A stretch of 64,000 bases of DNA, from positions 713,237-777,236 of the forward strand of contig JAHCID010000001.1 in the NCBI GenBank assembly GCA_026129405.1, given 5' to 3'. The position numbers and the translations under genes are program-made. Source of the DNA: a bacterium. GTDB taxonomy: Bacteria; Desulfobacterota; Binatia; DP-6. Positions 4,783 to 40,399 of the stretch are shown piece after piece (within the stretch, counting starts at the first letter, position 1; each line of letters begins with the position of its first letter). The notes under the pieces were generated by a model. That model was not told the DNA's origin, ran no database searches, and saw only the letters and a list, made by a program, of their open reading frames with translations.

Positions 4783-4785
4783 GTC

Positions 4786-9460: not shown

Positions 9461-9564
9461 GGGGCTAGACGGGGTATCGGCCGGGGCGTGAGGGAGCTTG
9501 AAGCGCCGCGGCGAGCGCGGAGAATTTGACACCCCGCGCCGGCCGGCCATAGACCGGGCAGAAC

Positions 9565-11944: not shown

Positions 11945-11947
11945 CCG

Positions 11948-12142
11948 TCAGTCCGGGTCCGCGACGAACCGGCCCGCCTTTGCGTCGGCGATGGTCCGGA
12001 AGCGGGTGACGCCGCGCCGGATCGGCGCCGGGCGCGCGAGCTGCGCGAGGCGGCGCAGCCGCGCCAGGATGCGAGGGTCGCCGCTGGGAAGCCAGAGGGC
12101 GTCGCGAGCCTCCTCGAACGTGCGGAACCTGTGGACGGGCAC
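11948..12142 (-). CDS. Small partner of the nucleotidyltransferase (antitoxin-like)
   Basis: The 64-residue product starts with GTG directly after the TAG of the nucleotidyltransferase gene, with no gap. MPVHRFRTFEEARDALW followed by a PxSGDPRILARLRRL-type segment is a pattern repeatedly seen in small proteins downstream of this nucleotidyltransferase family. It is probably the second component of a toxin-antitoxin-like pair. Which member is toxic cannot be told from sequence. Confidence 0.65.
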   Translation of the reverse strand: MPVHRFRTFEEARDALWLPSGDPRILARLRRLAQLARPAPIRRGVTRFRTIADAKAGRFVADPD

Positions 12143-13765: not shown

Positions 13766-15289
13766 TCACTCGAGAGGGGCGAACAGCCCGAGGCCGAAGT
13801 GGCAGGCGAAGCCGAGCGCCAGCGGACCGGGGACGGGCTCCGCGAAGCGAAGCGTCCAGAAGCTGCCCTGCCGATCCGGCTGCGTCAGGCCCGGCTTGGA
13901 GCGGAAGCGATGGAAGTGGATCGGTCGCAGCATGCGGCCGCCGACGGCGATCTCGGCGACGGGCTCGACGGCGGTGGGATCGGGGAGGCCGCGCTCGCGC
14001 AGCTCGCGGCGGATCTGGTCCGGAGCGTCGAAGCGCGGCTTGCGGTGCCAGGGATGGAGATACGGGGTCACGGAGCGCCACTCTTGTGCGTGGCGGAGCA
14101 GCGGCGACGCGAAGGCAGGGAGGTCGCCTACCGCTTCGAGGATCACCTGCCAGGCGCGGCCGTCGGCGTCGGCCACTCGTCGGAGGCCTTCGAGGACGGC
14201 GACGGCGTTACGGTCGAAGCCTGCCTTTGCGAAGACGATCGCATGATGGACGCGGCCGGCGAGGCCGGGCCGCGCCCCTTCGTGCGCTTCGGGAAGGTAG
14301 AACGCGTGCGCATGGCCCGACGGGCCGTGGGTGGAGAAGACCTCGGGCAGGCTCTCGGGGCCGAGGATCGTACGACACCGTCCCATGATCGCCCGCCGCA
14401 TCCGCTCGCCGAAGCGCACGGCGTCTTCGACGCGGCACAGCGGTTTGCCGTACACCGCATAGCGCGCAACCCTGACTCGCGTGTGGCTCCTCCGCGTCCG
14501 GACTCGCGGGACGGCCGCCGGCTGGAGCGCGCTCGTCGGGCGCGTGTAGAGCACGGCGCGCGCCGCCGGAGGGGCGCTCCATCCCGCCGCCCGTAGCGCG
14601 CCGCTCTCGACCTCGAGGCTCGCCAGCCAGTCGATCGGCAGGGTGGCGACGATCGCGTCCATCTCCTTCTTGCCTGCTCGCCGCTGCTTGGCGTCGGCAA
14701 GGGTCCGCGCTCGGAGCGCCGCGTACTCGGCCGGCGAGCGGGGGACGAGGAGCGTCACCAGATCGTGCGAGTCCGACGCAGCGGTCTCGACGCCGTCCCC
14801 GGCGGGGCACGTATCGAGCGGATCGTTCCACTGGGGCAGGCGTCGCGCCTCGACCCAGCTCTCGGCGCGCCCGAGGTAGGACAGGCGAGCGAGCAGGAGA
14901 TCGAGCGCGCGCTCCTCGTCGCCGTCGAGACGAAGCGAATTCCACACGGCCACCAGGCGGGTGTCGGCTCCGAAGCGCGCGAATGCGTCGAAGACGAGGG
15001 TCGTCTTCTCGGCCCGGCCCTCGCGCGTCGGCATGTAGTGGCGGGTGTGGGCATGAACCGCGGGTGGAAGCGCGTAGCCCGGTAGCTCGCCGGAAAGCGT
15101 TTCGATCAGCCGCGCCAGCGTCTCGCGCGGCACCTCGTCGGGCGTCGCCTTGCGGCGCCAGGTTGCCAGCAGCGCGCGTGCGATGCGCCACGGGTCGGGC
15201 GGCCAGCCGACGTCGGCTTCGTTCACGTGCCGGCCCCACGGCGTCGCGTGATAGCGACCGGCGGGGAACTCGAAGGCGATGGCCAGCAC
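13766..15289 (-). CDS. csb2: Type I-G Cascade protein Csb2 (Cas5-Cas6-like), module A
   Basis: The product has 507 residues from a GTG start 5 nt after the csb1 stop. The family signature AGRYHATPWGRHVNEADVGW lies at residues 10-29 and is followed by PPDPWRIARALLATW. The C-terminus carries the RAMP glycine-rich end CHFGLGLFAPLE, where the family normally stops. In type I-G systems Csb2 supplies Cas5 and Cas6 functions: it binds and processes the crRNA 5' handle region. It is the third gene of csx17-csb1-csb2 module A. Confidence 0.93.
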   Translation of the reverse strand: MLAIAFEFPAGRYHATPWGRHVNEADVGWPPDPWRIARALLATWRRKATPDEVPRETLARLIETLSGELPGYALPPAVHAHTRHYMPTREGRAEKTTLVFDAFARFGADTRLVAVWNSLRLDGDEERALDLLLARLSYLGRAESWVEARRLPQWNDPLDTCPAGDGVETAASDSHDLVTLLVPRSPAEYAALRARTLADAKQRRAGKKEMDAIVATLPIDWLASLEVESGALRAAGWSAPPAARAVLYTRPTSALQPAAVPRVRTRRSHTRVRVARYAVYGKPLCRVEDAVRFGERMRRAIMGRCRTILGPESLPEVFSTHGPSGHAHAFYLPEAHEGARPGLAGRVHHAIVFAKAGFDRNAVAVLEGLRRVADADGRAWQVILEAVGDLPAFASPLLRHAQEWRSVTPYLHPWHRKPRFDAPDQIRRELRERGLPDPTAVEPVAEIAVGGRMLRPIHFHRFRSKPGLTQPDRQGSFWTLRFAEPVPGPLALGFACHFGLGLFAPLE

Positions 15290-15294
15290 CGGGG

Positions 15295-18416
<3,122 letters not shown>

Positions 18417-18793: not shown

Positions 18794-20179
18794 TTACCAG
18801 CGGACCCTCCACATGCCCCCGCCAGTGCACGACGCGCAATGCTGAAGGGTCTGCCAGCTTCGTTCCCCCTCGAGGCGCGCGATGCCCTTGCGTGCCTTGT
18901 CTGCCGCGTGAGCGCCCTCCCATTTGTTGTGGCCGCAGTCGCCAACGGGAACAACAACGTCGTACCCAGGCTTGGCGTACGTCTTCTTGTAGAAACGGAT
19001 CTCACCCGGCTCTGGGGGCGTGGTCTCGCCCTGCTCCTGGCTGTCGGGCGCGATATCATCGGGGGAAAGGCCCGAAGCCTCTTTCGCCTTCGCGGCGTTG
19101 AGATGGCTCAACAAAGCCTGACGATCCCCGTCCAGGCGGGATACCTCCGCCGCTAACTCCTCCACCCTGCTTCGCAGTTCATCGCGATCCTGTCGGAGGG
19201 CGTCGTTTTCGACAGCATACAGGTCCGCCAGGGCCCTGTATTCTTCAAGCGACTGGGCGCGTTCCTTGTGCTCCAGCAGCGCCCTTCGGCTACCTGCATC
19301 CCGTATCGCGTCGATCTCCGGCGGGCGGATGACGCTTACAGCAGACGTACGGAACAGGAGTGCGCGAAGCTGCCGACGAAAACGCTCCCGCGTTTGCACC
19401 GCATCATCCGACGCGGAGACGAGGCGCTCCGCGGTCCAAAGCGGGTGACGATAACGATCGTCCACTCTCGAAAAGTGCGGCCAAAACAGACGCACCGCGC
19501 CCCGGTAGCAGCCCCATTGAGGCCCGAGAGCATCCCTGAGAGCCCAGGACGCTTCATCGTTCACGATGAAGACGTTCGCGAGCCCGACAAGGTCATGGCT
19601 GAGTTTGACGTCGAGGTCTGGGAGCGAGCAGTAGCCGCCATGGGTACTGATGAGAACGATTGGTACGGTTCGCTGTGGATCGGAAATCGTGTTGGCGAGA
19701 AGCTCACCCGCGTCGAAGCTGTTAGCGCGCTGACACCCTTGCAGGACCGACGAGCCATGGCGCCAAGTCACTGGCAGAGCGAGGAGATCGCGAACGATCC
19801 GTGGGCACTTCGGGTCCACTTCCACCGGCATGATGTGGGTCGTGGTCCAGCCGGTCTCCAGCGTAACGTAAACAACGACCCGCTCATTGGTTCGCACGAC
19901 CGATACAGCGACAGAAAAACGGCGACCGGCTGGGGCATCCTCGTGCAGTTCCAGCATCCACCAAGTGCTGTCGCCATCTGCCGCATCGGCGACGCGATAG
20001 GTTCCTATGCTCCCATCCTCCGGCTTGTAGCCTCCAGATGTGACGGCAGGATCGCCACCCTTCGATCGCAGCCAAGTGGCCACCCGGTCGTTCACGAGTT
20101 GTTCTACTCGCTTCCGCTCTTCTGCAGCTAAGGCCGACCACCCCGAGTGCTCGAAGAGATACGCAGCCACCTTCTGCAT
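18794..20179 (-). CDS. Unrecognised 461-aa coiled-coil protein with a C-terminal Cys/His domain
   Basis: I do not recognise this family. The ATG at 20179 is the only start before an in-frame stop; AGGAGG (20192-20197 on the plus strand as CCTCCT) lies 12 nt upstream. Residues 1-300 look globular, with segments such as RFSVAVSVVRTNERVVVYVT, PRIVRDLLALPV, and a block GCYRGAVRLFWPHFSRVDDR. Residues 306-361 form a strong coiled coil (EELAAEVSRLDGDRQALLSH). A Pro/Glu-rich linker leads to a C-terminal domain of about 70 residues (390-461) with Cys415, His417, Cys448 and Cys451 arranged like a zinc site and ending GGGMWRVRW. No signal peptide or membrane segment was seen. It is less GC-rich than flanking genes. 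It sits between two type I-G modules, after an attC-like site; a defence role is inference. Confidence 0.75.
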   Translation of the reverse strand: MQKVAAYLFEHSGWSALAAEERKRVEQLVNDRVATWLRSKGGDPAVTSGGYKPEDGSIGTYRVADAADGDSTWWMLELHEDAPAGRRFSVAVSVVRTNERVVVYVTLETGWTTTHIMPVEVDPKCPRIVRDLLALPVTWRHGSSVLQGCQRANSFDAGELLANTISDPQRTVPIVLISTHGGYCSLPDLDVKLSHDLVGLANVFIVNDEASWALRDALGPQWGCYRGAVRLFWPHFSRVDDRYRHPLWTAERLVSASDDAVQTRERFRRQLRALLFRTSAVSVIRPPEIDAIRDAGSRRALLEHKERAQSLEEYRALADLYAVENDALRQDRDELRSRVEELAAEVSRLDGDRQALLSHLNAAKAKEASGLSPDDIAPDSQEQGETTPPEPGEIRFYKKTYAKPGYDVVVPVGDCGHNKWEGAHAADKARKGIARLEGERSWQTLQHCASCTGGGMWRVRW

Positions 20180-20208: not shown

Positions 20209-20268
20209 GCCCAACGCTTAGCATCAGCGGCGGCCCGCAGCGCCGTCCGCTGCATGCTGTTGTTGGGC
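20209..20268. repeat. attC-like (59-base-element) recombination site
   Basis: The 60-nt element is bounded by GCCCAAC (20209-20215) and GTTGGGC (20262-20268), which fit the attC R-box consensus RYYYAAC/GTTRRRY. Inside, a 4x3-nt unpaired spacer is followed by paired arms AGCAT-CAGCGG and CCGCTGcATGCT, with two unpaired bases (C253 and T246 of the 20xxx coordinates) on the same arm, as attC extrahelical bases are. It covers the last 15 codons of csb2 (B). A plain terminator hairpin is the alternative. Confidence 0.5.
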
Positions 20269-21831
20269 AGCCGTGACTGGCGTTACCGAGCGTGGAAGAC
20301 CTTCATGCTGAGCCACCGGCCGGAACAACCCCAGGCCGAAGCTGCTGGAGTGCCCGAGGCGGAGGGGCCCAGATATCGGCTCGGGGAAGGTCAGTCGCAC
20401 GCGCTGGCCGAGGCGATCGCCGATGAACGCGCGCTGGCTCGCGTCTCGTCGCGGTAGATGAACGGAGACCCAGCACGGAGGGCCGATGGGCTCGTACGCG
20501 ATGTCCTCGGGGATCCCTCGCTGTTGAAGCTCGCGCCGGATTTGCGCGGCGAGCGTTTCGCGTTCGCGCTCCTTGCCGCCCCGGAGGTGGTGCCTCGGCG
20601 GGACGTATGGTGTGACCGACTCCCAGACGAGCGACGCCCTTTCGTCAAAGCCGGGAGGAGGTGGGACCGAACGATCCAGCGGGATCAGCCGCACCTTCCA
20701 CTCATCGGCGTCCATCCCGGGCGCGGCCCAGGATACGTCGCGGGAGGCGGCCCGGAAGATCGCTTCCTGCTCGTCCGCGTCGAGCGCGGCTGAGCCTCGC
20801 CACACCAACAGGCGCGTCGGCGCGTGGTCCTCGCACCAGGCGAAGAACTCGGTGTGGCGGTGCCCCGAAAGCGGTGTGCCGTCGGCGTGCTTTCCCACCA
20901 TATGGGCGATCGTCTCGCGCACGTCGCGGCTCGTGCGGCTCCAGGTCGCCTTCGGGTCTCCGGTCTTGAGTCGCAGCAGTTCGCGCAGCACCGCGCCCCG
21001 CAAGCGCGAGGTGAGGCGCGCGACGGCCCGTGCCTGAGGGGCCACGTTCCACCCGATGGCGAGCTGCACTAGGTGGAGGTTCTCCTGGTGGGCAGGTGAT
21101 CGTCGCCGCTCGCGGACGGGCGGCCGAGGGGGCCGATCGGCGTAGCGCCGGATCGCTCCGGGCGGGACGCTGCGCTGTTTCGCCTTGTCGTCGTCGGTCG
21201 TGCGCTCGATGTCTTCGCGCGTCGCGTTCGGAAGCGGCACAAGGACAGGGATGGCGCCAGCCATGCGATCGTCACGAAGCGTGCAGTTCGGCTCCGGAAT
21301 ACTGTCCTCCGTGAGTGTGACGAGTACGCGCGTGAACGTCTCGGCGCGACCGAACCAGGTCAGTCGCTCGACGCATGCGCTGAGCGCCGCCACCAAGTCG
21401 TCGGTCCAAGCGTCGCTCTCGATGAACCACCAGACGGGCTCATCGGGTGGGACGCACCAGTAGTTGTCCTGGACGAGGCTGATGCCGTAGCTGCGGGTAC
21501 CAGGCTTCTTCCTCCCGGCCGGGTTCCAGCCGAAGGTGGTGGGGTGGTACTGCCTCAATGGGATACCCCTCCCCGCCGACGGTGGGAGGTGGAACGCATA
21601 CGTGCTCTTGCAGAGCGCAGCCTGGAGACCTTCGAGATCCGCGATGTGTTGGGGTCGCTCTGGATCCTTGCCCATCTCGCGGGCCCACTGGTACCAGCGG
21701 GCCGTTACCGCACGGACCAGACGCCACGGGCTCGGCGGCCACTCCCCGTGCGGATCGTCGTAAGGATTCACCCGCCACGGTGTTGCGTGGAAGCGACCGA
21801 GTGGGAACGCCTGGCGGAGGACGACGCGCAT
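20224..21831 (-). CDS. csb2: Type I-G Cascade protein Csb2 (Cas5-Cas6-like), module B
   Basis: The 535-residue product has the family signature LGRFHATPWRVNPYDD near residues 12-27 and EWPPSPWRLVRAV just after. The glycine-rich end SSSFGLGLFRP is where module A Csb2 and the family stop. Here about 27 further residues follow (AQHEGLPRSVTPVT... and a Gln/Ala/Arg-rich end), the last 15 of which are encoded by the attC-like element. The ATG overlaps the csb1 (B) stop by one base (TAATG). Module B lacks its own cas1/cas2 and must use spacers from the shared array, if it is active. Confidence 0.92.
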   Translation of the reverse strand: MRVVLRQAFPLGRFHATPWRVNPYDDPHGEWPPSPWRLVRAVTARWYQWAREMGKDPERPQHIADLEGLQAALCKSTYAFHLPPSAGRGIPLRQYHPTTFGWNPAGRKKPGTRSYGISLVQDNYWCVPPDEPVWWFIESDAWTDDLVAALSACVERLTWFGRAETFTRVLVTLTEDSIPEPNCTLRDDRMAGAIPVLVPLPNATREDIERTTDDDKAKQRSVPPGAIRRYADRPPRPPVRERRRSPAHQENLHLVQLAIGWNVAPQARAVARLTSRLRGAVLRELLRLKTGDPKATWSRTSRDVRETIAHMVGKHADGTPLSGHRHTEFFAWCEDHAPTRLLVWRGSAALDADEQEAIFRAASRDVSWAAPGMDADEWKVRLIPLDRSVPPPPGFDERASLVWESVTPYVPPRHHLRGGKERERETLAAQIRRELQQRGIPEDIAYEPIGPPCWVSVHLPRRDASQRAFIGDRLGQRVRLTFPEPISGPLRLGHSSSFGLGLFRPVAQHEGLPRSVTPVTAAQQQHAADGAAGRR

Positions 21832-22931
21832 TACTCGTCGTCCTCACCCTCGGAGCCGTCATCGTCCTCTTGGGGCTTGTCTCCGCTCTCGGCGCCCTCG
21901 CGGTACAGCTCCTCCCGCGGCCAGAAGACGTCGGTGATGCCCTGCTCGCCGAAGCCGGCCACCGTGATCGCGTCCTGGATGTTCACCGCGAGCACGATAT
22001 CCTCGCCCTCGCTCTGGAGCGCCGTGCGACGAAGGTGACAGCCCGAGCGGTAGCGGAACGGCTGCTCGAGGAGCTTCTGAACCTTCCAGAGCGCGAGTGC
22101 CACGAGCAGCTCCTGATGCTTGTCTGAGATGCCGAGTTGTTCGGCGCCCTTCCTGCGCCCGAAGGAGCGAATGAGGCTTACGTCCAGCACGAAGGTGGCT
22201 CGCATCGACTCCGCGGTGGCGTCATCGGCGGCGAAGATCGGCTGGCCCGAGGTGGTCTTGCGGAGCCGATCGAACTTCACGCCGGAGCGATCCACGCGCC
22301 CCGCGCCGAACGCTTCGAGGTGGGCGGTGAGCGCGCGAGGTATCTTGATCTGCCACTGCGGGAAGAGCACGCCGTGGACGAGGGAGTTGGGGTCAAGTGC
22401 GAAGATCGTCTTGAAGACCTTCCACCACTGGCTGGCCGGGGGGTGGGCCTTCTTACCCTTCGGATTCGGAAGCACGATCCCGAACTTCGAAATGAGGTCC
22501 TGGTCGAACTTGCCGGTTGCCTTCTTGTCTCCCGCCAAAGGGTAGCCGTCGAGGAAGTAGGAGGACGCGATGCGGTGCCCTTCGGTGAGGCTCGTGACGA
22601 CGACCTCGCGATGCTGGGTCGGTTCAGCCCCCTCCGACGCGTTCGTGACGCAGCGGATGTGGGGCAGGCCGTTCAGCTCCTCGACCAAGTCCAGGTCGTG
22701 CGCGCCGCGCTGGCAGACCGACTCGAGGTGATTCGCCATGCTCGCCGCGCTGTCCACGATGCAGACCTGCTCGACGGTGCCGTTCTTGCGGGGCGCCTTG
22801 TAGATGACGTGGCCGATCTCGGGGAAACCCGCTGGCTGGAAGCGGTCACCCGCGACGGGTTCGAGCGTCGCGGTCAGGATCAGCGGGGAGTATCCCTTCA
22901 GGACATCAGCGGGGTTGAGCGTCTTGGGCAT
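21831..22931 (-). CDS. csb1: Type I-G backbone protein Csb1 (Cas7), module B
   Basis: The 366-residue product has the signature GDRFQPAGFPEIGHVIYKAP, the IKIPRALTAHLEAF block and a predicted backbone fold like module A. It is 48 residues longer than its module A counterpart, partly from a very acidic C-terminal tail (ESGDKPQEDDDGSEGEDDE) that module A lacks. The start codon lies 26 nt inside csx17 (B), a translational coupling overlap. Role: Cas7-type filament subunit on the crRNA. Confidence 0.92.
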   Translation of the reverse strand: MPKTLNPADVLKGYSPLILTATLEPVAGDRFQPAGFPEIGHVIYKAPRKNGTVEQVCIVDSAASMANHLESVCQRGAHDLDLVEELNGLPHIRCVTNASEGAEPTQHREVVVTSLTEGHRIASSYFLDGYPLAGDKKATGKFDQDLISKFGIVLPNPKGKKAHPPASQWWKVFKTIFALDPNSLVHGVLFPQWQIKIPRALTAHLEAFGAGRVDRSGVKFDRLRKTTSGQPIFAADDATAESMRATFVLDVSLIRSFGRRKGAEQLGISDKHQELLVALALWKVQKLLEQPFRYRSGCHLRRTALQSEGEDIVLAVNIQDAITVAGFGEQGITDVFWPREELYREGAESGDKPQEDDDGSEGEDDE

Positions 22932-25023
22932 GAACGTCTCCTTGTGGGCGGCGTCGGGGACGCAGCCAGCGTTCGACCAGGGTCGCGCGCTCGCGGCCCG
23001 AGAGGGGGAAGAGGAGAGCCGCGACGAGGCGGTCCGGGTCGTGGGTCCGCCAGCTCGCGTCGAAGGTGGCGAGGCGGACTCCCGCCATGGCGTAGCGGCT
23101 GGCGGCGAGGCGCGCGGCGGAATCAAGGTTGGCGGACCGCACGAGCGTGACGAGGGAGCGCGCTGCCCCGGGCGTGCGGGCGCCGCGCTCGTCGTCGAGG
23201 AGGTCCTCAGGCGAGACCGCGTCGACGACGAGGCGGCGCCGGTCAACGAGGGGTTGTACGAGCCCGAGCAACGCGAGTTCACCGTCAGCGCTCCGGGACG
23301 CAGGCGCTCGAGCCGCGAGCGCGCGGACTTCGTTCGGGACAAGCTTCCAGTCGAAGAGCGCGAGGCGGGAGAGCCAGGCCGTCAGGAGGGGCTCGTCGAC
23401 GTCGCCCGCGAGCCAGCGGCGCAGGTGGTCCGCCGATGCTGGGAGCGGCGCGCGACCGCGCCAGCGCGTACCAGGGAAGTCCAGCTTCGGCTCTTCCAGC
23501 AGCCTTCGAGCGAGCACAGCGCCAATGGCGCGGGAGATATCGCCCGGTCTCCAGACCCAGCGAGGCGGTGCAACCTTCGCGTGCTCGAAGCGGCGGGGGC
23601 GCGCGCGTCCATCGACCTCGCCATCCAACGTCCAAGAAACGCCGAAGCGGAAGGCGGTGAAGGGCAGCGCCTCGGGGAAGCCCGACACCAGCGCCAACGC
23701 GAGGCGGGCCTCGACTCCGGGTGCCTCGTCCTCGAACAATGAGGGGAGCCACTCGATGGGCAGGGGCTGCCATTGGACCCGCTTCTCGCGGAAGCTGCGG
23801 TTGTGATCGATGCGATCAAGCGCGAAGACGACCGCGTCGAGCAGAGCAATGCCGGCATCGGGGCGATCAGGCGCGGCGGCGACGTCGAGGAGCGCGGACT
23901 CGATGGGCCCTCGCAGCCCCGCGAACCGCTTGCCATCGCGAGGGAAGCCGCGCTGCTCGATCAGCATGGTGGCGCGCTCCAGCACGAGCGAGATCGACGC
24001 GCTCACGGCGCTTGCGGCGAGCGAGAACCGGCCTTCCAGCCGAGGCTCGACCGACTTCCGGCTCGTCGTCCTACCGAGCGTGAAGCGGCGGAACTGGTCG
24101 ATGCCTGCGTCCACGCCTCGCTTGTGGATGGCCGTCGCGAACGCGGCCGGCGTCAGGGCACCTCGCCCGGCCAACTCGGCGCGGCCGCGCTGGAAGAGCG
24201 CGCTCACCTCGGGAACCGTCATCGGGCGGGCCCAGAGCGGCGCCCAGATCTCACAGCGGAGGCGATCGGCCTCGTTCTCGGCGCTCGCGGCGACAGGCTG
24301 CGTGACGAAAGGGAACGCGCCGACGGCCCGCGTGCGCGCGCCGAGCCTTCGGGACGCCCCACCGGCGAGAAGCGCCAGCGCTTCACAAGCGAGCGCCATC
24401 GCCCAGGGGGAGGTCTGGCTGGCCCGGGCTGGTGTCTGACCGCTGTTGTAGAGCTTCGTCGCGTCAGCGAACCATGAGCCGGCGTTGAGCTTGTCCAATA
24501 GCCAATCAACGGGCAGCCCCATCAGCAACGCCGAGAGCGAGTCGCGCCTGGGGTCTGCACCCTTCTTCGGCGGTCCGGCAAGCGCATCCACGGCGGCCTT
24601 CCACCCATTCTCGAAGTCCCTCCGTCCGCCGCTGCTACGGAGAAGGGGGTTGAGGCTTACGTGCGCATGTGGGACCGCGTGAGCGGCGGACAGCGCGAGG
24701 AGACCTTCGGGGGCCGAGGCCTGCCACAACGCGAGTGGCTCGCCAGACTTCGTCTTCGTGCCCTTCTGCTGAGCGTTGGACCAAGCCTTGTCGTACGGGG
24801 TCCACGCCCGGTCGCTCGCGACCTGCAGCAGCTCGTTAACCAGCTCGTCCAGGGTCGAGGGCCCACCGACCATCTGGAGCACCTCGTCGCGCCACGCGAT
24901 GCGAGTCGGCGGCCACTTCCGACTGAGCACACGCGAGAGGCCGAGGGACGCAAGGTAGTTGCCCAGGCTGTCGGGCGACAGGCCAGGCAGTGCCACGACT
25001 GGAAGTCGAAGCTCAGCCGCCAC
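22906..25023 (-). CDS. csx17: Type I-G large subunit Csx17 (Cas8-like), module B
   Basis: The product has 705 residues from a GTG at 25023, chosen because it starts MAAELRLPVVALPGLSPDSL, the Csx17 opening motif; upstream residues in frame are translations of cas3 in another frame. It keeps LPGLSPDSLGNYLASLGLSR and the later PFVTQP and GRAELAGRGAL blocks. The PWNGGSGFY motif of module A is replaced by LNPLLRSSGGRRDFENGW, so the two large subunits are strongly diverged and may read different PAMs. It overlaps the cas3 (B) 3' end by 11 nt. Confidence 0.88.
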   Translation of the reverse strand: MAAELRLPVVALPGLSPDSLGNYLASLGLSRVLSRKWPPTRIAWRDEVLQMVGGPSTLDELVNELLQVASDRAWTPYDKAWSNAQQKGTKTKSGEPLALWQASAPEGLLALSAAHAVPHAHVSLNPLLRSSGGRRDFENGWKAAVDALAGPPKKGADPRRDSLSALLMGLPVDWLLDKLNAGSWFADATKLYNSGQTPARASQTSPWAMALACEALALLAGGASRRLGARTRAVGAFPFVTQPVAASAENEADRLRCEIWAPLWARPMTVPEVSALFQRGRAELAGRGALTPAAFATAIHKRGVDAGIDQFRRFTLGRTTSRKSVEPRLEGRFSLAASAVSASISLVLERATMLIEQRGFPRDGKRFAGLRGPIESALLDVAAAPDRPDAGIALLDAVVFALDRIDHNRSFREKRVQWQPLPIEWLPSLFEDEAPGVEARLALALVSGFPEALPFTAFRFGVSWTLDGEVDGRARPRRFEHAKVAPPRWVWRPGDISRAIGAVLARRLLEEPKLDFPGTRWRGRAPLPASADHLRRWLAGDVDEPLLTAWLSRLALFDWKLVPNEVRALAARAPASRSADGELALLGLVQPLVDRRRLVVDAVSPEDLLDDERGARTPGAARSLVTLVRSANLDSAARLAASRYAMAGVRLATFDASWRTHDPDRLVAALLFPLSGRERATLVERWLRPRRRPQGDVHAQDAQPR

Positions 25024-27838
25024 GACGCACCTCGCTTGGCTTGACGCTCGCGCTAGGTTTCTCGCTGGCACGCCTGTCCGCGACACGAACAAGCGCCTCC
25101 AGATAGGCCAGGGCGAATGGGCCGAGATGGCGCGGCTCGGTTTCCGGCACGACGCCGGCACTGCCCTTGTCCTCGGGCCGCCATGGGCCGAGCAGATCGG
25201 CAACAAGGCCAGTCCAGCCTTGCCCCGTCAGCACGAACTCGTTGCCCTCCCAGCGGCCCTCGGCTCCGTCCTTCGCGACGGAGAAGTCGAGCGGCCACTG
25301 GTCGGAGCCGAGCACCAGCGTGCGAGGCTCGCTTCGCACGCCGAACACGTCATCACCCTTTCCACTCGTCGATCTGAGCACGGTGCGCGCCTTCCCGTGG
25401 TGCGTCGCTGCCAGGTAGACGGCGAGGGCTGGGTAGTTGGCGCCGCCGTCGCGGTACCTTCGCCACATCGCGAGCGCGGAGGCCACCTCGTGGCGCAGGC
25501 CGGGGCGGAACTGGATGTGACCTGCCCAGCGAACGCCGGATATCGCTCGCAGCGAATTCAGCTCGTCCTCTCCGAGCTTGTCGTCGATGGCCCAGCGAAG
25601 TCGGACGACATCTTCCCGGCCGCGTCGTCGCGCTTCATCAGGCAGCGAAAGCGCTGCCGGCCGAAGCCGAAGGATCTGACTTCGAACCGCAACGGCTTCG
25701 CCCACCACGTCGACGGCCAGCACGCGTGGGCTCTTGGCGAGCGGCTCATCGGGGATGCCGGAGCGATCAGCCAACGCGGTCTGCCACTGGGGATGTGCCT
25801 TGCCAAGATCGTGAAGCCCGGACGCTTCGATGACCGCGGTGCGCGTATGACCGTTCAGCGCGAGCGTCTCGCACAGCGCCTCTGCCTCGCGCCGTGCGTC
25901 GGCGAGATGGTCCTCGAGTCGCGACCAGTAGCCGACCTCGGTCCAGGTATCGTCGCGCAGGGAAGCTCCACGCCCGGCGCGCGGCACTTCGGCGAGGACG
26001 TTCGACTTGTCTCCGGTCCAGCCCTCGGTAACGTCGTAGCCGCCGATCTCGCGCTTCAGCATGACGAGCATGCCGGGGCGGATGTCCCAGTAGTTCACAC
26101 GCACCCAGTGGTCCGCCTCGTCGTCCCACAGCCAAGCCTTGCCCTTGTCGTTCTCCAGCATCTTCTGGACGCGAACGAAGGACACGGGGCACCCTTCGTT
26201 CGCCGGCTCCAGCAAAGGTCCGTCGAGGTCGTCGCTGGGTGGAGGGACGTCGCCCGACCAGTCGCGCCAGAACACCGTCACGTCGAGGTCTGGATCGGTG
26301 CCACGCACGAAAGCGCTGACGTCGGTGAACCCGCCGTGGACGTCGCGCTCCGTGGAGAACAGCCCGTGGGCATCGAGCGCGCGCGGAAGCGGGCTTGGTC
26401 TCGGCTGCAGCGCCTCGCGCACGTCCTTCTCATTCAGGTCGTCGATCGCCGCTGCGAAGGCCTTCTGCTGGGTAGCGGGCGCGAGCGCGCCGACGAGCTT
26501 TTTCGCGCGGTCGATGTCAGCACTCTCGTAGGGCCCGATGCGCTCGGCCTTCCCGCGCCCGCCCTCCTGCGGTGTCTCCCAAACCCACGCACGGGCGTTT
26601 TGATCGTCTCCCTTTCGATTGAGACGACCCAGACGTTGGAGCACCGAAGGCCATGGCGCGAGCTCCGACCACAAGCGATGCGCGGAGATGTCCAAGCCCG
26701 CTTCGATAACCTGCGTGCTTACGCAGATGAGTCCCGGGTCGTCCTTCGGTAGCTTGCCTGCCTTCCGGTTGGCGTCGAACTCGAGGAGTCGCTGTTCATG
26801 TCGGCTGCGGTCCTCGCCCCGGAACCGTGAGGTCAACAGCACCTTGTGCGTCACCGACAGCGCGCGGAACACCTCACGCGCCATGTCCACGGTGTTGCAG
26901 ATGACGAGGGAAAGCGCGCCCCGCTCATGCTTCTCCACCACAGCCCTGGCGATGGTGTCGGGTGTGACTGCGTTCTCGGTCGACACCCTCGCAGTCCTTG
27001 ACCTCTTGCTGCCGCTCACGTTCGGCGACGTGCCGCTCCACCACTCGACAGCGCGCTTCGCGGCTCGCCACCACGAGAGACCCTGGTCGTCGACGAGCGC
27101 GGCCTTCAGCTTGCTCTCGAATGCAACTTGGTCCGCCGACGGCTCGCCAAGTTCCTCGCGCGTTCGGTCGGTGGTGCTAAGAAACGACGTGCCTGCGGTG
27201 GCGCTCATCCACGTCGTTAGGCACGGCCTCAACGACCGGAACCGCTTCCTTCGCATCCAGTCGAGCTGCGAGGTCGTCCACAGGCCCGGCCCCATGAGCT
27301 GGACTTCGTCAATGAGCCATCGGCAGTCGTTGTTCAGAAGGCCGAAGTGGACCGGCCACTCGAAGCGGCTCATGGCGTAGCCGCGGTTCAACGCACGCGA
27401 CAGCAGCTGGTCCTGCGTCCCGACGAGGACCCACGGCGTGTCCGGCCATCGCGCCCATTGTTCGTCGATCGTGCCGCCCATGAGCTGATACACGCCGATC
27501 TCGATCTCCGGCGTGTTGGCTCTGAGCGCCTCGAAGTAGCCCTTCAAGCGCTGCACGGTCTGCATCACGAGGCTGCGCATTGGCAGACAGACTACGAGGT
27601 GCAGGGGCTCGGGCTGTTTGTCGACCAGGAGGCGCCACGCCCACGCGAGCGCGACCTCCGTCTTTCCAAGACCCGTAGGAACGCGAAGCACGTCGGGCAA
27701 GCCATCGACGGCAACCTGGAGCTGCCAGTCGTATGGCGTGAACCCGCCGGTCGCGGTCTTGAAGAACGCGGTGAAGTTGTCCGCGCGGGAGTCAGTCGCC
27801 TTCACTCTGCCCACTCCCCCTGTTCCGACCTCGGTCAC
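25013..27838 (-). CDS. cas3: Type I-G helicase-nuclease Cas3, module B
   Basis: The 941-residue product has the helicase-then-HD order of type I-G Cas3. The N-terminal superfamily 2 helicase shows Walker A PTGLGKT (residues 54-60), DExx box LIDEVQLMGPG, STQVIEAGLDIS and motif VI SVLQRLGRLNRKGDD. The C-terminal HD nuclease shows SGLHDLGKAHPQWQ and THHGKARTVL. All catalytic signatures are intact. It is the first gene of the cas3-csx17-csb1-csb2 operon of module B. Once recruited by Csx17 it should unwind and degrade the invading DNA strand. Confidence 0.94.
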   Translation of the reverse strand: MTEVGTGGVGRVKATDSRADNFTAFFKTATGGFTPYDWQLQVAVDGLPDVLRVPTGLGKTEVALAWAWRLLVDKQPEPLHLVVCLPMRSLVMQTVQRLKGYFEALRANTPEIEIGVYQLMGGTIDEQWARWPDTPWVLVGTQDQLLSRALNRGYAMSRFEWPVHFGLLNNDCRWLIDEVQLMGPGLWTTSQLDWMRRKRFRSLRPCLTTWMSATAGTSFLSTTDRTREELGEPSADQVAFESKLKAALVDDQGLSWWRAAKRAVEWWSGTSPNVSGSKRSRTARVSTENAVTPDTIARAVVEKHERGALSLVICNTVDMAREVFRALSVTHKVLLTSRFRGEDRSRHEQRLLEFDANRKAGKLPKDDPGLICVSTQVIEAGLDISAHRLWSELAPWPSVLQRLGRLNRKGDDQNARAWVWETPQEGGRGKAERIGPYESADIDRAKKLVGALAPATQQKAFAAAIDDLNEKDVREALQPRPSPLPRALDAHGLFSTERDVHGGFTDVSAFVRGTDPDLDVTVFWRDWSGDVPPPSDDLDGPLLEPANEGCPVSFVRVQKMLENDKGKAWLWDDEADHWVRVNYWDIRPGMLVMLKREIGGYDVTEGWTGDKSNVLAEVPRAGRGASLRDDTWTEVGYWSRLEDHLADARREAEALCETLALNGHTRTAVIEASGLHDLGKAHPQWQTALADRSGIPDEPLAKSPRVLAVDVVGEAVAVRSQILRLRPAALSLPDEARRRGREDVVRLRWAIDDKLGEDELNSLRAISGVRWAGHIQFRPGLRHEVASALAMWRRYRDGGANYPALAVYLAATHHGKARTVLRSTSGKGDDVFGVRSEPRTLVLGSDQWPLDFSVAKDGAEGRWEGNEFVLTGQGWTGLVADLLGPWRPEDKGSAGVVPETEPRHLGPFALAYLEALVRVADRRASEKPSASVKPSEVRRGG

Positions 27839-27923
27839 GCTCGTGCGCTCTCGTCACGTCAGCTCTCGTCTGTCCAACGCGCGTTCACTTGCTCGCCTCG
27901 ACGACGGTCATCGTCCTGCAGCT

Positions 27924-28425
27924 TCACGCCCTCACCTCCGCCCCGAACCCGATCCGCCGCCGCTGCTTCGGTTCCGGCAGCGTCATCAGCTCGCGGATCG
28001 CGTCGAACACGACTTTGAACTGCCGATCGTACTTCTGCTCCAGCGCGTCGAGCTTGCGGGCAAGGTCCGCGTGCGTAGCCAGCAAGCGGCGCAGCTTCAC
28101 GAACGTCCGCATGATGTTGCCGTGAACTGCCCGATCGCTGCGGAGGACGCTCGACAGCATCGCCAAACCCTGCTCGGTGAAGGCATACGGCGGATACCAG
28201 CGCCCGCCCCACGAACTTTGAGGTCACAATCTGTGACCTCAAATCGTCGAGCTCCGATGTCGTGAGACGGAACATGAAGTCGGAAGGAAACCGCCTCAGG
28301 TTCCGCTTGATGGCTTGGACGAGCACCTTGGTCTCGACGCCGTAGGGGAGCGCCAGATCTGCATCGAGCATCACCTTGTGGCCGCGGACGAGCAGAATCG
28401 CTTGCTCGATTCGCACGAGCATCAT
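27924..28425 (-). pseudogene. ORF6N-domain (phage-type) protein, frameshifted
   Basis: The N-terminal half, MLVRIEQAILLVRGHKVMLD then RNLRRFPSDFMFRLT, is the ORF6N DNA-binding domain found in phage antirepressor-type proteins. After LRSQIVTS the frame breaks; the expected continuation [20 protein letters not shown] runs in another frame up to [16 protein letters not shown]. Removing one A of the AAA at 28217-28219 (TTT on the plus strand) restores the whole protein. It is either a genuine pseudogene or a one-base assembly error. It sits between the two cas3 genes, at the right edge of module B. Confidence 0.8.
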
Positions 28426-28450
28426 TGGACCACCGCGTGGCCGCATCGCC

Positions 28451-31400
28451 TCACGCCGCATCCGCCCGCCCCACCCGCAGCAGATCCACCCCCTCATCCC
28501 CCCAAACCTGCTCGCGCGCCGACGCCCGCCAGTCCGCCACCCGCACCAGCGCCTCCATCCACGCCAGCCGGAACGGCCCGTACCGCGCGACGAGCCCCTG
28601 CACCCGCTCCGCCCACGACCGCCCCGCCGCGCCGCCGCCCAGCTCGGCGACGTCGAGCCGCAGCACCGCCGAGCGCACCGTCTCGCGCTCCCCGATCTGC
28701 AGCCCCGGCAGGCGATCCCCGTCCCAGACGCCGCGCGCGAAGCGCTTAGCCGGATCCTCGGGGGCGCGCTCGTCGGGGAGCGCGCGCAGCCCCATGCGCA
28801 CCTTCCCGTGGTGGGCCGCGACCAGGTACGCGACCAGATCGGCGTCGGGCTCGCCGTCGTGCTGATCGATCCAGGCGAGCGCGGAGGCCAGCTCGTGCCG
28901 GAAGTGGCGGCGCTCGTGTCGCCCCGAGCAGGGCGACTTGGCGAGCGCGCCGGCGGCGAGGCCGGCGACCGCCGTGCAGCTCCGCAGCGTCTTCTGGAAG
29001 ACGGGATGCACCTTGCCTACGTCGTGCCAGCGCGCGGCGCGCTCTACCGCCGCGCGCTCCACAGAGGCGCCGAGCGCGTCGCACAGGGCGCGCGCCTCGT
29101 CCTCCACGTCGACGAGGTGCCGTTCGAGGGCGACGGGATGGATCTGGCAGCTCCGCCAGTCGGCGTCGTAGTCCTCGGCGGGCTGCGGCTCCTCGGGCGC
29201 GATCGGCTCCACGCGCGTGCGGCTCGACGCCAGGAAGCCGAGGCGCGGATCGTAGCCGCCGAGCGCGGCGTCGAGGAGCAGCGTCTCGCCCGGCCGCGCG
29301 CGCCGATCGAGCGGCACCCATGCGCCGTCGAGCGCATCGCGACGGCGGATCGCGCCAACCTCGACGCGGATGCGCTTGCGGTACGTCTCGAGCTCCGAGA
29401 GCCCGGCGCGGCACAGCTCGTCGCGCTCGGGAGCCGGCGCCTCGGCCGGCGTGGCGGCGGACAGGTCGCGCCAGAACACCGCGACGTCGAGCTCGTCGGC
29501 GTCGCGCACGTATGGGGAGACGTCGATGTCGAAGCCGGAGAGGTCGGCCTGGGTGTCGAAGAGATCGAGCAGATCGCGGCGTCGCAGCACGAGGCCCGGC
29601 TTCGGCTCGGTGCGAGCGGGCGGGAGGGCCGACGGGCTCGCGCTCGTGAGCGACGCCAGGCATGCGCGGGCGTCGTCGAGCTCTGCGGCCGTGTACGGGA
29701 GCGGCAGCTTCTCCTCGCTCGCGACGTCGATCCAGCGCACCGTCGCGTCGTCGAGCTCGCCGTAGCGGTTGGCGCGGCCGAAGCGCTGCACCAGCGACGG
29801 CCACGGCGCGAGCTCCGTGAAGAGCGTCGCGGCACTCACGTCGATGCCGGCTTCGAGCGCCTGCGTGGAGACGGCGATCGTGCCCGCCTCGCGCGGCGGC
29901 GCCGTCAGGCGTCGTTCGGCGGCCAGGCGATCGCCGGGGCGGAAGCGGGCGTGGACCAGCACGAGGTCGGGCTCGAGGCTCTGGCGGTCGAGCTCCTGGT
30001 ACAGCGCCTGCGCGCGCGCCACCGAGTTCAGGAAGACGAGCGTGCGCGTTCCGGGGCGATGCGCCTTCAGCACCTCGGCTGCGAGCGCGGTGACGTAGCC
30101 CGCGGCGTCGCGCTTGGCGCTCTCGACGTCGAGCCGTGTCCGGGCTCGCGCCACCGTCTTCGGTGCATGGAGGCGCCGCCGTACGTCGGGGTGGGCGCGG
30201 TCGGCGTCGTCGAGCGAGAGCCGGACCGCGCCCGGCAGATGCGCCGCGAAGTCGGCCGTCGCCAGCCAGCGCTCGTCCAGCGTGGCGGAGAGCCAGAGGC
30301 TGCGCGTGTCGTGCGGGATGCCGAGCGACCGCCGCAGGCCTTCGAGCTGTGCGGACGTCGCCTGGCCGGGGCCCATGAGCTGGACCTCGTCGAAGACCCA
30401 CAGCGCATCCGTGTGCAGGAGCGCGAACGGCACCGGCCAACGTGCGCGCGGTACGCCGTAGCCGCGCATGAGCGCGGCCGACAGCAGGAGATCCTGCGTC
30501 CCGACGATGATCGCCGGGCTCTCGGGCTGCCCCGTCCAGGCGTCGTCGCGCGCGCCGCCCATCTGGAGGTACACCTGCGGCGGTGCGATGCCGGCGTCGT
30601 CGAAGAGCGCGCGGCTGGCGTCCAGCCAGCGGCGCGCGGTGCCCGCGGTCTGCTCGACTAGGACGCGCATCGGCAGGCAGTAGACGAGGCGGCGCGGCGT
30701 GGCGGCGTCGGCGCGGAGCAGCCGGTGCAGCCAGGCGACGATCACCGCGGCGGTCTTGCCGAGTCCGGTCGGTATCTCGACGATCTCCGGCCACGGTCCG
30801 TCCGCGAGACGCTGCTGATACGGATACGGCTCGGTGCCGGTGAGCGTGCGGAAGAACGTGGCGTAGTCGAGGTTTGCTTCCATGTCGTGGGCCCTCGGAG
30901 TTTCCCGGACCGACGACGGCTCCTCCGGGTCGGCATCCGGCGCCAGCGTGCGGATCCGGCGCCACGACACGAGACGCACGCCCGAGCGTTCGCTCGACAC
31001 GTCGCCGCTATGGACGAGTGTTGGTGGGCCGAAGCTCGCCGTCGAGCGCTCCACCTGCGCGCGCAGCGAGGTCAGCCAGGCCGGCGACGGCGTTCTGCTC
31101 GCCTTCACCTCGACCGGCACCTGACGCTCGCCCTCGTCGATCAGGACGTCGATCTCGTTGCCGGCACGATCCCGCCAGAACGAAAGGTTCGCCGGCAGCC
31201 CGGCATTGTAGCGGGCCTTCAGGAGCTCGGTGACGACCCAGGTTTCGAAGAGCGCCCCGCGCGCCGGGTGACGGGCGAGGTCGCGAGCGCTGCGGATGCC
31301 GATGACCGCAGCCGCGAGGCCGGGATCGATCACGTACAGCTTCGGCGTCCGGACCGGGCGCTTGCGGAAGCTGGGCTCGTTCGCCGGCAGCCGGAAGAGC

Positions 31401-32140
31401 ACGTAGCTCGCTTCCAGGACCGACAGCCACTCGAGCGCCGTGCGTTGGTCGACGCCGCAATCCGCGGCCAGCGAGGTGACGTTGACGAGCTGGCCCGTGC
31501 GCGATGCGCAGGCCTGGAAGAAGCGGTCGAAGGTCGTGAGGTCGCGGATGTTGGCGACCCGGCGAACGTCGCGCTCGACGTACGTGCGCAGGTAGTCGAG
31601 GTACCAGCGCCGCGGATCGACCGGCCGGTCGTGGACGGGCGGAAAGAGGCCGCGGAACAGCAGCTCGTCGAGGCTCGCCGGCTCCCGCCCCGCGTCCTGC
31701 AGCTCGGCCAGGGAGAACGGCAGTAGCTCCAGGATGGCGACGCGCCCGGCGAGCGATTGGGTGATCGCTTCGAGGAGCTGGATCTGCTGCGAGCCGATGA
31801 GGATGAAGAGGCCCATCCGGGCGTCGCGATCGAGGATCGCCTGGAGGTAGCGGAATAGGTCGGGACAGCGCTGGGCCTCGTCGAGAACGGCGCCGTCGGG
31901 GAATCGCGCGAGGAAGCCGCGTGGGTCGCTGGCGGCGTGCTGCTCCTCGTCCGGGTCCTCGAGGGAGCAGTAGGGTCTGTCGCGAAGGAGGCGACGGGCC
32001 AGGGTCGTTTTCCCGGACTGAGCAGGTCCCGTAAGGATCACTCCCTTGTTGGATGCAAGTGCGCATCGCGCTGATTTATCAGCGATTCTTGCTAGCTCAT
32101 GCGACGGCACTTTTATGGCTGATTCATCCTTGCTTGGCAA
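28451..32140 (-). CDS. cas3: DUF4143 AAA ATPase fused in frame to type I-G Cas3 (module A)
   Basis: One uninterrupted frame encodes 1229 residues. Residues 1 to about 395 are a COG1373-type ATPase: Walker A GPAQSGKT (38-45), Walker B LDEAQ (86-90), then DUF4143 with the nuclease-like FETWVVTELLKARYN and EIDVLID...VPVEVKAS. A 25-residue acidic/Pro linker follows. From Met420 (MEANLDYATFFRTLTG) it is a complete type I-G Cas3: PTGLGKT, FDEVQLMGPG, SLVQRFGRANRYGE, and C-terminal HD ARWHDVGKVHPVF plus AHHGKVRMGL. The start is a TTG at 32140 overlapping the addA stop; a GTG at 32110 is also possible. Met420 (ATG at 30883) has GAGG 9 nt upstream, so Cas3 alone could also be translated. Confidence 0.88.
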   Translation of the reverse strand: MPSKDESAIKVPSHELARIADKSARCALASNKGVILTGPAQSGKTTLARRLLRDRPYCSLEDPDEEQHAASDPRGFLARFPDGAVLDEAQRCPDLFRYLQAILDRDARMGLFILIGSQQIQLLEAITQSLAGRVAILELLPFSLAELQDAGREPASLDELLFRGLFPPVHDRPVDPRRWYLDYLRTYVERDVRRVANIRDLTTFDRFFQACASRTGQLVNVTSLAADCGVDQRTALEWLSVLEASYVLFRLPANEPSFRKRPVRTPKLYVIDPGLAAAVIGIRSARDLARHPARGALFETWVVTELLKARYNAGLPANLSFWRDRAGNEIDVLIDEGERQVPVEVKASRTPSPAWLTSLRAQVERSTASFGPPTLVHSGDVSSERSGVRLVSWRRIRTLAPDADPEEPSSVRETPRAHDMEANLDYATFFRTLTGTEPYPYQQRLADGPWPEIVEIPTGLGKTAAVIVAWLHRLLRADAATPRRLVYCLPMRVLVEQTAGTARRWLDASRALFDDAGIAPPQVYLQMGGARDDAWTGQPESPAIIVGTQDLLLSAALMRGYGVPRARWPVPFALLHTDALWVFDEVQLMGPGQATSAQLEGLRRSLGIPHDTRSLWLSATLDERWLATADFAAHLPGAVRLSLDDADRAHPDVRRRLHAPKTVARARTRLDVESAKRDAAGYVTALAAEVLKAHRPGTRTLVFLNSVARAQALYQELDRQSLEPDLVLVHARFRPGDRLAAERRLTAPPREAGTIAVSTQALEAGIDVSAATLFTELAPWPSLVQRFGRANRYGELDDATVRWIDVASEEKLPLPYTAAELDDARACLASLTSASPSALPPARTEPKPGLVLRRRDLLDLFDTQADLSGFDIDVSPYVRDADELDVAVFWRDLSAATPAEAPAPERDELCRAGLSELETYRKRIRVEVGAIRRRDALDGAWVPLDRRARPGETLLLDAALGGYDPRLGFLASSRTRVEPIAPEEPQPAEDYDADWRSCQIHPVALERHLVDVEDEARALCDALGASVERAAVERAARWHDVGKVHPVFQKTLRSCTAVAGLAAGALAKSPCSGRHERRHFRHELASALAWIDQHDGEPDADLVAYLVAAHHGKVRMGLRALPDERAPEDPAKRFARGVWDGDRLPGLQIGERETVRSAVLRLDVAELGGGAAGRSWAERVQGLVARYGPFRLAWMEALVRVADWRASAREQVWGDEGVDLLRVGRADAA

Positions 32141-38270: not shown

Positions 38271-38582
38271 ATGAGGAACACGTATCTCGTCTGCTACGAC
38301 ATCTGCGAGGATCGGCGCCTGCGCCTCGTCTACCGCACGATGCGCGATTTCGGCGATCACCTGCAGTACTCGATCTTCGAGTGTCAGTTCACGCCGACGG
38401 ACCTCGTGCGATGCCGGCACGCGCTGAGCGAGATCATCGATCATCGCGAGGATCAGGTGCTCTTCGTCGATCTGGGGCCCGTCGAGGGGCGCGGCGATCG
38501 CGTCATCACCGCACTGGGTAAAGCGTACTCGCCCATCGACAGCCCGTGCATCGTCGTCGACCGCCCGTCCGGGGGGCGATGA
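38271..38582 (+). CDS. cas2: CRISPR adaptation endoribonuclease-fold protein Cas2
   Basis: The 103-residue product has the ferredoxin-like Cas2 start MRNTYLVCYDICEDRRL, with the conserved Asp (YDI) and the characteristic QYSIFECQF strand. The ATG at 38271 gives the normal Cas2 length; the in-frame GTG at 38241 would add ten atypical residues. Cas2 dimers bridge Cas1 dimers in the spacer integrase. Here it precedes cas4-cas1, with an ATGA overlap; the more usual order is cas4-cas1-cas2. Confidence 0.95.
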   Translation: MRNTYLVCYDICEDRRLRLVYRTMRDFGDHLQYSIFECQFTPTDLVRCRHALSEIIDHREDQVLFVDLGPVEGRGDRVITALGKAYSPIDSPCIVVDRPSGGR

Positions 38583-40399
38583 TGGGCTCGCCGCGCGCGG
38601 TGCCTCCCGGCGAGAAGATGCAGCGGCGAGGTCCGCTGGCGGCGTCGCCCGCCCGAACCGTCGAGCTTCCGGAGTACCTGCCCGCCCGGATGCTCAACGA
38701 GTTCGTGTACTGCCCGCGGCTCTTCTTCTACGAATGGGTCGAGCGGGTGTTCGTCGAGAGCGTCGACACGGTCGAGGGCTCGCAGCGCCACGAGAAGCTC
38801 GAACGCAAGGCCGACCCGCTGCCGCCGGCCGGCGACGGTGACGACCGCCCGGTGCGCTCGCGCTCGGTCTCGGTGGCCAGCGACGAGCTCAAGTTGATCG
38901 CGGTCATCGACGTCGTCGAGGGGAGCGGCTCACGCGTGACACCCGTCGACTACAAGAAGGGGAGGCCGCGCGACGGCATCGACGGGCCGGAGCCATGGGA
39001 TGCGGATCGCATCCAGGTCGGTGCACAGGCACTGATCCTCCGTGCGAACGGCTACGAATGCGACGAGGCGGTTCTATACTACGACGGAACACGCCAGCGC
39101 GTGCGTGTTCGGATCGATGAGCAGCTCGAAGCCGATGTCCGCGCCGCCGCTGCGGCGGCGCGGTCGGTGGCGAGCCGAGGAGCGATCCCGCCCCCGCTCG
39201 TCGATAGTCCGAAGTGCCCTCGATGCTCGCTGGTGCCCGTGTGCCTCCCGGACGAGACCGCCGCGGCCGCAAGGCTGCGCGAGCTCGACCACGCGGAGCA
39301 GCTACCGCTCTTCGACGTTGCGGGTGTCTCCGGTGGGGACATCCACCAGGCGTCGAGTGATCCGGTCCGGCGGCTCGTCCCGGCCCGCGACGATCTGCGT
39401 CCGCTCTATGTCACCGGTCATGGGCTCAGCATCGGGAAGAGCGGCGAGGTACTCCAGGTTCGCGAGCGCGGGAAGCTCGTCCAGGAGGCACGAGTGGGAG
39501 AGATCTCGCAGGTGAACGTATTCGGCAACGTTCAGCTCACCGCGGCTGCCGTCCAGGGCCTGTGCTGGGCCGATCGCCCGATCGCACACTTCTCGTTTGG
39601 CGGCTGGTTCTACGGCCTCACTCAGGGAATCGGTCTCAAGAACGTCTTCCTGCGCCGCGAGCAGTTCCGACGATCCGAGGACGGACGCTTCGCGTTGCGG
39701 ATTGCGCGCGCGATCGTCGCGTCGAAGATTCGAAACCAGCGCACCCTGCTGCAGCGCAACCACATCGAGCCGCCGGCGCTCGTCCTGAAGCGGATGCGCC
39801 GCCTCGCAGCCGACGCGGGGGAGGCCGAGGACCTTGCCGAGTTGCTCGGGATCGAGGGGACCGCGGCCCGAATGTATTTCCAGGAGTTCGGGGGACTCCT
39901 CAAGCAGGAAGACGGCGACGGTCTACCGCCGCTCGATCTCGATGGCCGCAACCGGCGCCCGCCGCGAGACCCGGTGAACGCGCTCCTGTCGTTCGCCTAC
40001 AGCCTGCTGGTCAAGGACGTCACGATCGTGTGCGCCACGATCGGCTTCGACCCGTTCGTGGGCTTCTATCATCAGCCGCGCTTCGGCCGCCCGGCACTCG
40101 CGTTGGATATGATGGAGATGTTCCGCCCGTTGATCGCGGACTCCGCCGTGCTGAGCGCAATCAACACTCGCATGGTCGGACGCGACGATTTCATCCAGGC
40201 CGGACGAGCCGTCGGCCTCACGCCATCGGGCCGAAAGGGAATGATCCGGGCATACGAGCAACGGATCGACACCCTGGTGACGCACCCGCTCTTTGGCTAT
40301 CGAGTGAGCTATCGCCGCATCCTGGAGATTCAGGCTCGGCTCCTGGCGCGAGTGCTGATGGGCGAAATCGTGACGTATCCCGGCTTCGAGACGCGGTAG
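38579..40399 (+). CDS. cas4-cas1: Cas4-Cas1 fusion, spacer selection and integration
   Basis: The 606-residue product starts at the ATG overlapping the cas2 stop; a few residues at the start may be dispensable. Residues 30-230 are Cas4: the first cluster Cys in FVYCPRLFFYEWVE (Cys45), RecB-type nuclease residues in VIDVVEG and VDYKKG, and the other three cluster Cys in PKCPRCSLVPVC (213, 216, 222). The Cas1 part starts near residue 275, with catalytic Glu in LLGIEGTAARMYF, His in FVGFYHQPRFG and the acidic block LDMMEMFRPLIADS. Cas4-Cas1 fusion is a hallmark of type I-G. It is the only adaptation module in the window, directly upstream of the array. Confidence 0.95.
   Translation: MMGSPRAVPPGEKMQRRGPLAASPARTVELPEYLPARMLNEFVYCPRLFFYEWVERVFVESVDTVEGSQRHEKLERKADPLPPAGDGDDRPVRSRSVSVASDELKLIAVIDVVEGSGSRVTPVDYKKGRPRDGIDGPEPWDADRIQVGAQALILRANGYECDEAVLYYDGTRQRVRVRIDEQLEADVRAAAAAARSVASRGAIPPPLVDSPKCPRCSLVPVCLPDETAAAARLRELDHAEQLPLFDVAGVSGGDIHQASSDPVRRLVPARDDLRPLYVTGHGLSIGKSGEVLQVRERGKLVQEARVGEISQVNVFGNVQLTAAAVQGLCWADRPIAHFSFGGWFYGLTQGIGLKNVFLRREQFRRSEDGRFALRIARAIVASKIRNQRTLLQRNHIEPPALVLKRMRRLAADAGEAEDLAELLGIEGTAARMYFQEFGGLLKQEDGDGLPPLDLDGRNRRPPRDPVNALLSFAYSLLVKDVTIVCATIGFDPFVGFYHQPRFGRPALALDMMEMFRPLIADSAVLSAINTRMVGRDDFIQAGRAVGLTPSGRKGMIRAYEQRIDTLVTHPLFGYRVSYRRILEIQARLLARVLMGEIVTYPGFETR

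Follow-up and report, generated by a model that had tools for sequence, protein, structure and literature searches.

A type I-G CRISPR effector module as a probable integron gene cassette ending in a solitary attC site

Integron gene cassettes that carry anti-phage defence genes have been described (Darracq et al., 2025; Kieffer et al., 2025; via excerpts of PMC12409362 and PMC12444791). The excerpted part of PMC12409362, citing Darracq et al., states that integrons store small defence systems and that CRISPR-Cas and BREX are notably absent. In the portions excerpted, the 2025 descriptions present small size as a requirement for defence cassettes, CRISPR-Cas and other multi-gene systems being absent. 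Cassettes in general contain one ORF and sometimes two (PMC8618304). In a laboratory assay, a consistent drop in excision occurred only for cassettes of at least 1,500 bp with a poorly folding site (PMC5371416), so the mechanism as such does not rule out a large cassette. Single cassettes are also recorded at secondary or attG sites, such as aadB in RSF1010 and those of Loot et al. (2024), as cited in excerpts of PMC10127599 and PMC12444791. Integron integrases use loose G^TT sites for such insertions, given as GNT and extendable to GTTRRRY (PMC10127599).

The locus described here lies in a 64-kb window (the whole stretch of DNA that was analysed), where a hairpin at the 3′ end of a csb2 gene is likely to mark the end of an exceptionally large cassette, a complete type I-G effector moved by the integron integrase IntI and inserted off-target in the window. 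It resembles the known defence cassettes, as the excerpts of PMC12409362 and PMC12444791 present them, in being defence cargo ended by an attC site within a store of defence genes, but those cassettes are small, with one or two genes, whereas the window cassette has four genes in 7.7 kb and encodes a CRISPR effector. With the cassettes at secondary or attG sites (excerpts of PMC10127599 and PMC12444791) it has in common that a lone cassette ending in attC sits at G^TT, away from any integron. However, its cargo is much larger, its setting is a natural defence region, and an older diverged copy exists elsewhere. The gene content is that of type I-G (formerly I-U) in Thioalkalivibrio sulfidiphilus, with cas3g, cas8g, cas7g (csb1) and csb2, the last a Cas5-Cas6 fusion that matures the crRNA in this subtype (PMC9638904). 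Unlike that system, the window effector forms a mobile unit without cas1, cas2, cas4 or an array, and its csb2 reads into the attC site, ending in a 29-residue tail. The CRISPR-Cas cargo of Tn7-like transposons, as outlined in the excerpt of PMC8649781, is likewise defence carried by a mobile element, but the window unit is bounded by integron core sites and an attC.

The hairpin is a genuine integron attC site by sequence, fold and covariance model. It occupies 60 nt of the minus strand (20209..20268), which read GCCCAAC AAC AGCAT G CAGCGG A CGGC GCTGCGG GCCG CCGCTG ATGCT AAGC GTTGGGC. The R″ box GCCCAAC (20268-20262) and the R′ box GTTGGGC (20215-20209; crossover G^TT at 20215/20214) conform to RYYYAAC/GTTRRRY and pair perfectly over 7+7 positions. 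In the minus orientation, the unpaired central spacer is AAC/AAGC, and on its 5′ arm the L″/L′ stem carries two extrahelical bases (G16 and A23). This agrees in spacer, L stem and extrahelical bases with the published anatomy of attC sites, which have an L box stem, an unpaired central spacer and two or three extrahelical bases (PMC11641012). The R boxes, the spacer and the two unpaired bases on one arm, all pointed out in an earlier note made from the letters alone, are thus borne out by both sequence and fold. Folded as single-stranded DNA, the element has a z score of -4.0 on one strand and -4.6 on the other, and none of 200 shuffles equalled it. The exact pattern GCCCAAC-N30..60-GTTGGGC has the window copy as its only instance in the 5.63-Mb genome. 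A search of the element against Rfam returned nothing at the gathering threshold and, below it, matches to other families only.

A covariance model purpose-built for this analysis, which differs from the IntegronFinder model, was trained on ten attCs (60-67 nt) drawn from this genome and from two relatives of its class, with the window element left out. In the training alignment ten pairs are changed on both sides, and shifting the partners abolishes the structure. The window element was matched on the minus strand with 69.2 bits (E 7.8e-15 for the 64-kb window; E 6.9e-13 genome-wide, second among all genome matches), so that the match by which the earlier note had proposed to check its reading was obtained although the element had no part in the training. 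The model prefers the gene-sense minus strand over the plus strand, which scores 21.1 bits, and the next unrelated match in the 64-kb window reaches 16.8 bits. The suspicion that the score was due only to a near-identical attC site on contig C6, the closest relative, was rejected, as the window element still scored 64.1 bits in a stricter leave-out with that site also removed. Thirteen other genome matches have E < 1e-5, and all lie within three arrays beside intI. Against an attC origin, the earlier note had said, would count a failed model search or the same hairpin at many unrelated gene ends; the model matches, and the other strong matches occur only in intI-linked arrays.

The arrays belong to integrons of the same genome. 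The integron-integrase profile TIGR02249 detects three loci over its cut-off, on contigs C1, C2 and C6, and an attC array adjoins each of these chromosomal intI loci, which supplies both the integrase and the further attC sites that had been suggested as things to look for. The intI frame is disrupted in this assembly at all three loci; barring sequencing errors at the breaks, the integrases have probably lost their function. Over 49 nt, the window attC shares 94% identity with the first site of the C6 array. That C6 site follows a cassette unrelated to the window module, and its R″ box, GCCTAAC, provides the TAA stop of the ORF ahead of it. The window attC is solitary, being the sole site in 64 kb, with the nearest intI about 0.9 Mb off on the same contig. 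Complete integrons and CALINs are recognized by a nearby intI or by at least two attC sites, respectively (PMC9024848), and the window site, a single attC with a distant intI, is neither. As separate observations, intI lies upstream of the array and codirectional with the cassettes in all three integrons (C1:1636103-1640637, C2:557777-565154, C6:15548-19604), opposite to the class 1 arrangement, and outside them a lone attC-like relic with a decayed R″ box scores 33 bits at C1:1431110-1431170 (L117:7111-7171).

In the orientation of the window attC, its own gene, 5′ of the site, is the csb2 of a four-gene module, here called module B. On the minus strand this module comprises cas3g (25013..27838; PADLOC Cas3g, E 6e-207), cas8g/csx17 (22906..25206; PADLOC Cas8g, E 3e-131), csb1/cas7g (21831..23342; Pfam PF09617, E 5e-27), whose true start is probably inside the annotated ORF, and csb2/cas56g (20224..21831; PADLOC Cas56g, E 7.5e-61 over residues 3-506). 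The four genes form one operon and thereby a type I-G effector. Upstream of cas3g, the core site GTTGGAC (27872..27878, minus strand), which conforms to GTTRRRY and has its G^TT crossover at 27878/27877, forms the left edge of a 7,663-bp gene cassette that runs on the minus strand from TTGGAC through cas3g, cas8g, csb1 and csb2 to attC (20215..27877, as limited by homology to the second copy described below). The cassette contains the full effector, with neither adaptation genes nor an array.

The csb2 of module B runs into its attC site. The final 15 codons of the ORF (AAQQQHAADGAAGRR) are inside the attC, and coordinates and translation agree on this point with the earlier note. The read-through arises because the R″ box GCCCAAC gives CAA in frame. 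The note had also held that the protein overruns the normal end of its family, and this is so: the ORF extends 29 codons past the conserved family end GLGLF[RK]P[VI], whereas Csb2 homologues end about 1-6 residues after this motif, with the sole exception of the homologue in the second copy, which has the same tail. In the AlphaFold model of the protein, which is of moderate quality as a whole (mean pLDDT 66.5), tail residues 509-535 have pLDDT < 50, a very low confidence such as would be expected of a passenger.

The limits of the cassette are set by comparison with this second copy. Relatives of the module B Csb2 were sought across 84,980 species genomes, and two loci proved close enough, one of them being L119 (JAJRTE010000239.1, a contig titled MAG: Myxococcota bacterium). 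L119 carries the same cas3g-cas8g-csb1-csb2 module with 84.6% DNA identity. DNA homology joins window positions 27875-20221 to L119 positions 3945-11602, beyond which there is only short cas3 paralogy. The first 40 bases inside 27877 and the last 60 bases inside the attC edge match L119 better than any of 2,000 shuffles in each case, while the 40 bases outside each cassette edge do not match L119 (1938/2000 and 1577/2000 shuffles as good). The breaks in homology lie 3 and 6 bp from the G^TT core sites at 27878 and 20215; GTTRRRY sites number 22 in the 64 kb on both strands, and four on the cassette strand in 8.6 kb. The attC model finds two sites in L119, one directly upstream of the module (3873-3934) and one at its end (11555-11617). 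Since the homology to L119 ends at core sites and L119 has an attC on each side, the module is, or at some time was, a gene cassette of 7,663 bp, its cargo lying between two core/attC sites with the attC 3′ in gene orientation, and it is known as a unit in these two copies only.

The two copies have diverged under constraint. Between the window and L119 attC sites, three of the 15 L-stem pairs differ, all compensated and none broken, for which a simple count gives a chance of about 3e-5; therefore selection has acted on the hairpin since the copies separated. The core boxes of L119 are degenerate, with GTCAGGC on the left and no GTTRRRY on the right. Of the four genes, all but csb1 were scored, and each of these three is under purifying selection: cas3g (dN 0.12, dS 0.45, dN/dS about 0.27), cas8g (dN 0.12, dS 0.33, dN/dS about 0.35) and csb2 (dN/dS about 0.23). 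The G+C content of the cassette is 67.8% and 68.1%, against 71.3% and 64.3% in the surroundings. In L119, the upstream attC is preceded by a short ORF (3601-3866), a layout typical of cassettes, which from its appearance we take to be DUF4926-like, and the small genes after the module (11790-12260) are presumably a ParDE toxin-antitoxin pair. Together, the short ORF before the module and the small genes after it are a setting typical of cassette arrays. The metagenome bin of L119 has no intI above the cut-off. The L119 genome is absent from the 148 genomes drawn for the class of the window, and the phylum samples of L119 and of the window have no genome in common among the rows listed. The two hosts thus appear to belong to different phyla, which would imply horizontal transfer, although the bin may hold stray contigs. 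No further copy of the module occurs in the sample of the window's phylum, and relatives of its csb2 were found neither in plasmids nor in viral contigs. The csb2 relatives in G050, G038, G024, G103, G108, G563, G607 and Rhodanobacter (L120) have no significant attC.

In the window, module B is set within another locus of the same subtype. The minus-strand order is cas3g of the resident module A, an ORF6N gene, the bracketed cassette (cas3g-cas8g-csb1-csb2-attC), an HEC-07-like gene, and then cas8g, csb1 and csb2 of module A. The resident cas3g (28451..32140, minus strand), with an AAA/DUF4143 ATPase fused in frame ahead of it, is parted by the cassette-bearing region from the resident cas8g-csb1-csb2 (13766..18416, minus strand). 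A resident cas4-cas1 fusion (38546..40399, plus strand) and a CRISPR array of 76 exact repeats (40585..46113, plus strand) also belong to the locus. The left neighbour of the cassette, an ORF6N-domain gene with a disrupted frame (27859..28497, minus strand; Pfam PF10543), lies outside it, save for the last bases of a spurious ORF. The right neighbour, an HEC-07-like candidate defence gene (18794..20179, minus strand; PADLOC HEC-07, E 1e-29), begins 29 bp after the attC, and homology to L119 does not extend past the core site. It has no close relative in the species-genome collection and one weak plasmid match. A model search with filters off found no second attC after this gene or left of 27878, and the gene is not called a cassette because no attC follows it. 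The earlier note had suggested movement of the module or, alternatively, of the gene beyond it; comparison with L119 upholds the first part, and the second falls, since the HEC-07-like gene is outside the cassette. An empty site, with the ORF6N gene joined to the HEC-07-like gene and the module absent, was not found; the relatives of module A are too distant (38-52% protein identity). Elsewhere, L116 in G108 contains at about 10150-11900 repeated fragments like the Cas3g N-terminus (FFRTATG...YQRRLA), with small ORFs between them and one ORF6N, and the start of cas3g there resembles a hot spot for insertions.

For the arrival of the cassette, the integron integrase would bind the R and L boxes of attC, and recombination at G^TT with attI, another attC or a loose GTT site would thereby insert the circle TTGGAC...csb2...GCCCAAC...G. 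The predicted circle would bear the R′ box GTTGGAC, with one mismatch to R″; R′ and R″ pairs with one mismatch are common among the attCs of this genome. The window insertion would most likely have been an off-target event: the GTT site used would have lain between the ORF6N and HEC-07-like genes, in a defence region inside the resident type I-G operon. We infer from the sequences that IntI carried the module to the window, and any direction of transfer between the two genomes is to be read in the same conditional way. The window cassette is probably frozen now, because it has one attC only and every intI over the cut-off in the assembly is disrupted; both copies look immobile. Weighing against the cassette reading, the left side in the window is without an attC, which means that an array context was lost or never existed, only two copies are found, the L119 copy has degenerate core boxes and comes from a bin with no intI over the cut-off, the intI genes of the window's genome are broken, and 7.7 kb is far above usual cassette sizes.

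These same points bear on other explanations. In one of them, the attC is genuine but the module has never travelled as a cassette; the operon would have come by another route and landed by an old attC, or recombination of another cassette would have deposited an attC at the 3′ end of csb2. The solitary window attC, the left edge without one and the occurrence of module relatives without attC all accord with this, yet two genomes have the same module and attC at an equal distance, the homology stops at core sites on both sides, and the L119 attC is directly upstream of the module, which leaves this account unlikely. In favour of reading the hairpin as a transcription terminator, or as a palindrome that arose by chance, are its strength and its place right after a gene end, but given the model score, the strand preference and the intI-linked relatives the probability of this reading is close to nil. 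An intrinsic terminator in particular was considered and rejected, the element being without a T run and no terminator-like site having been found.

The cassette could also have originated in place, if the resident module gained an attC and was excised via the upstream GTTGGAC, with the window as donor and L119 as recipient. An ORF6N gene is upstream of cas3g in the window and also in G108. The left neighbour may therefore have long accompanied the module, and the cassette may have arisen in the window. Against this, the module is inside another operon of its own subtype, its G+C is unlike that of the surroundings, and the copies are 15% diverged, from which it follows that the cassette form is old. 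Genesis in place therefore seems quite improbable beside the arrival of the module as an IntI-mobilized cassette.

The literature searched, from which subscription papers were mostly out of reach, yielded no report of a CRISPR-Cas cassette. With four genes and 7.7 kb, the effector cassette breaks the small-size rule for defence cassettes, and it offers a concrete test object for the cassette size that an integrase can move. The finding also suggests scanning the ends of cas operons for single attC sites, which IntegronFinder 2 omits by default because clusters are reported only from two sites (PMC9024848). The cassette effector could plausibly use crRNAs from the resident array, since the array found near a relative of module B in G050 has repeats that differ from the resident ones by at most 7 mismatches. 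The cassette also offers a possible route by which type I-G effectors spread with neither array nor adaptation genes, and integrons may well be able to capture multi-gene CRISPR-Cas effectors of more than 7 kb, spread them across distant bacteria, and re-insert them off-target into a resident locus on whose array they would draw.
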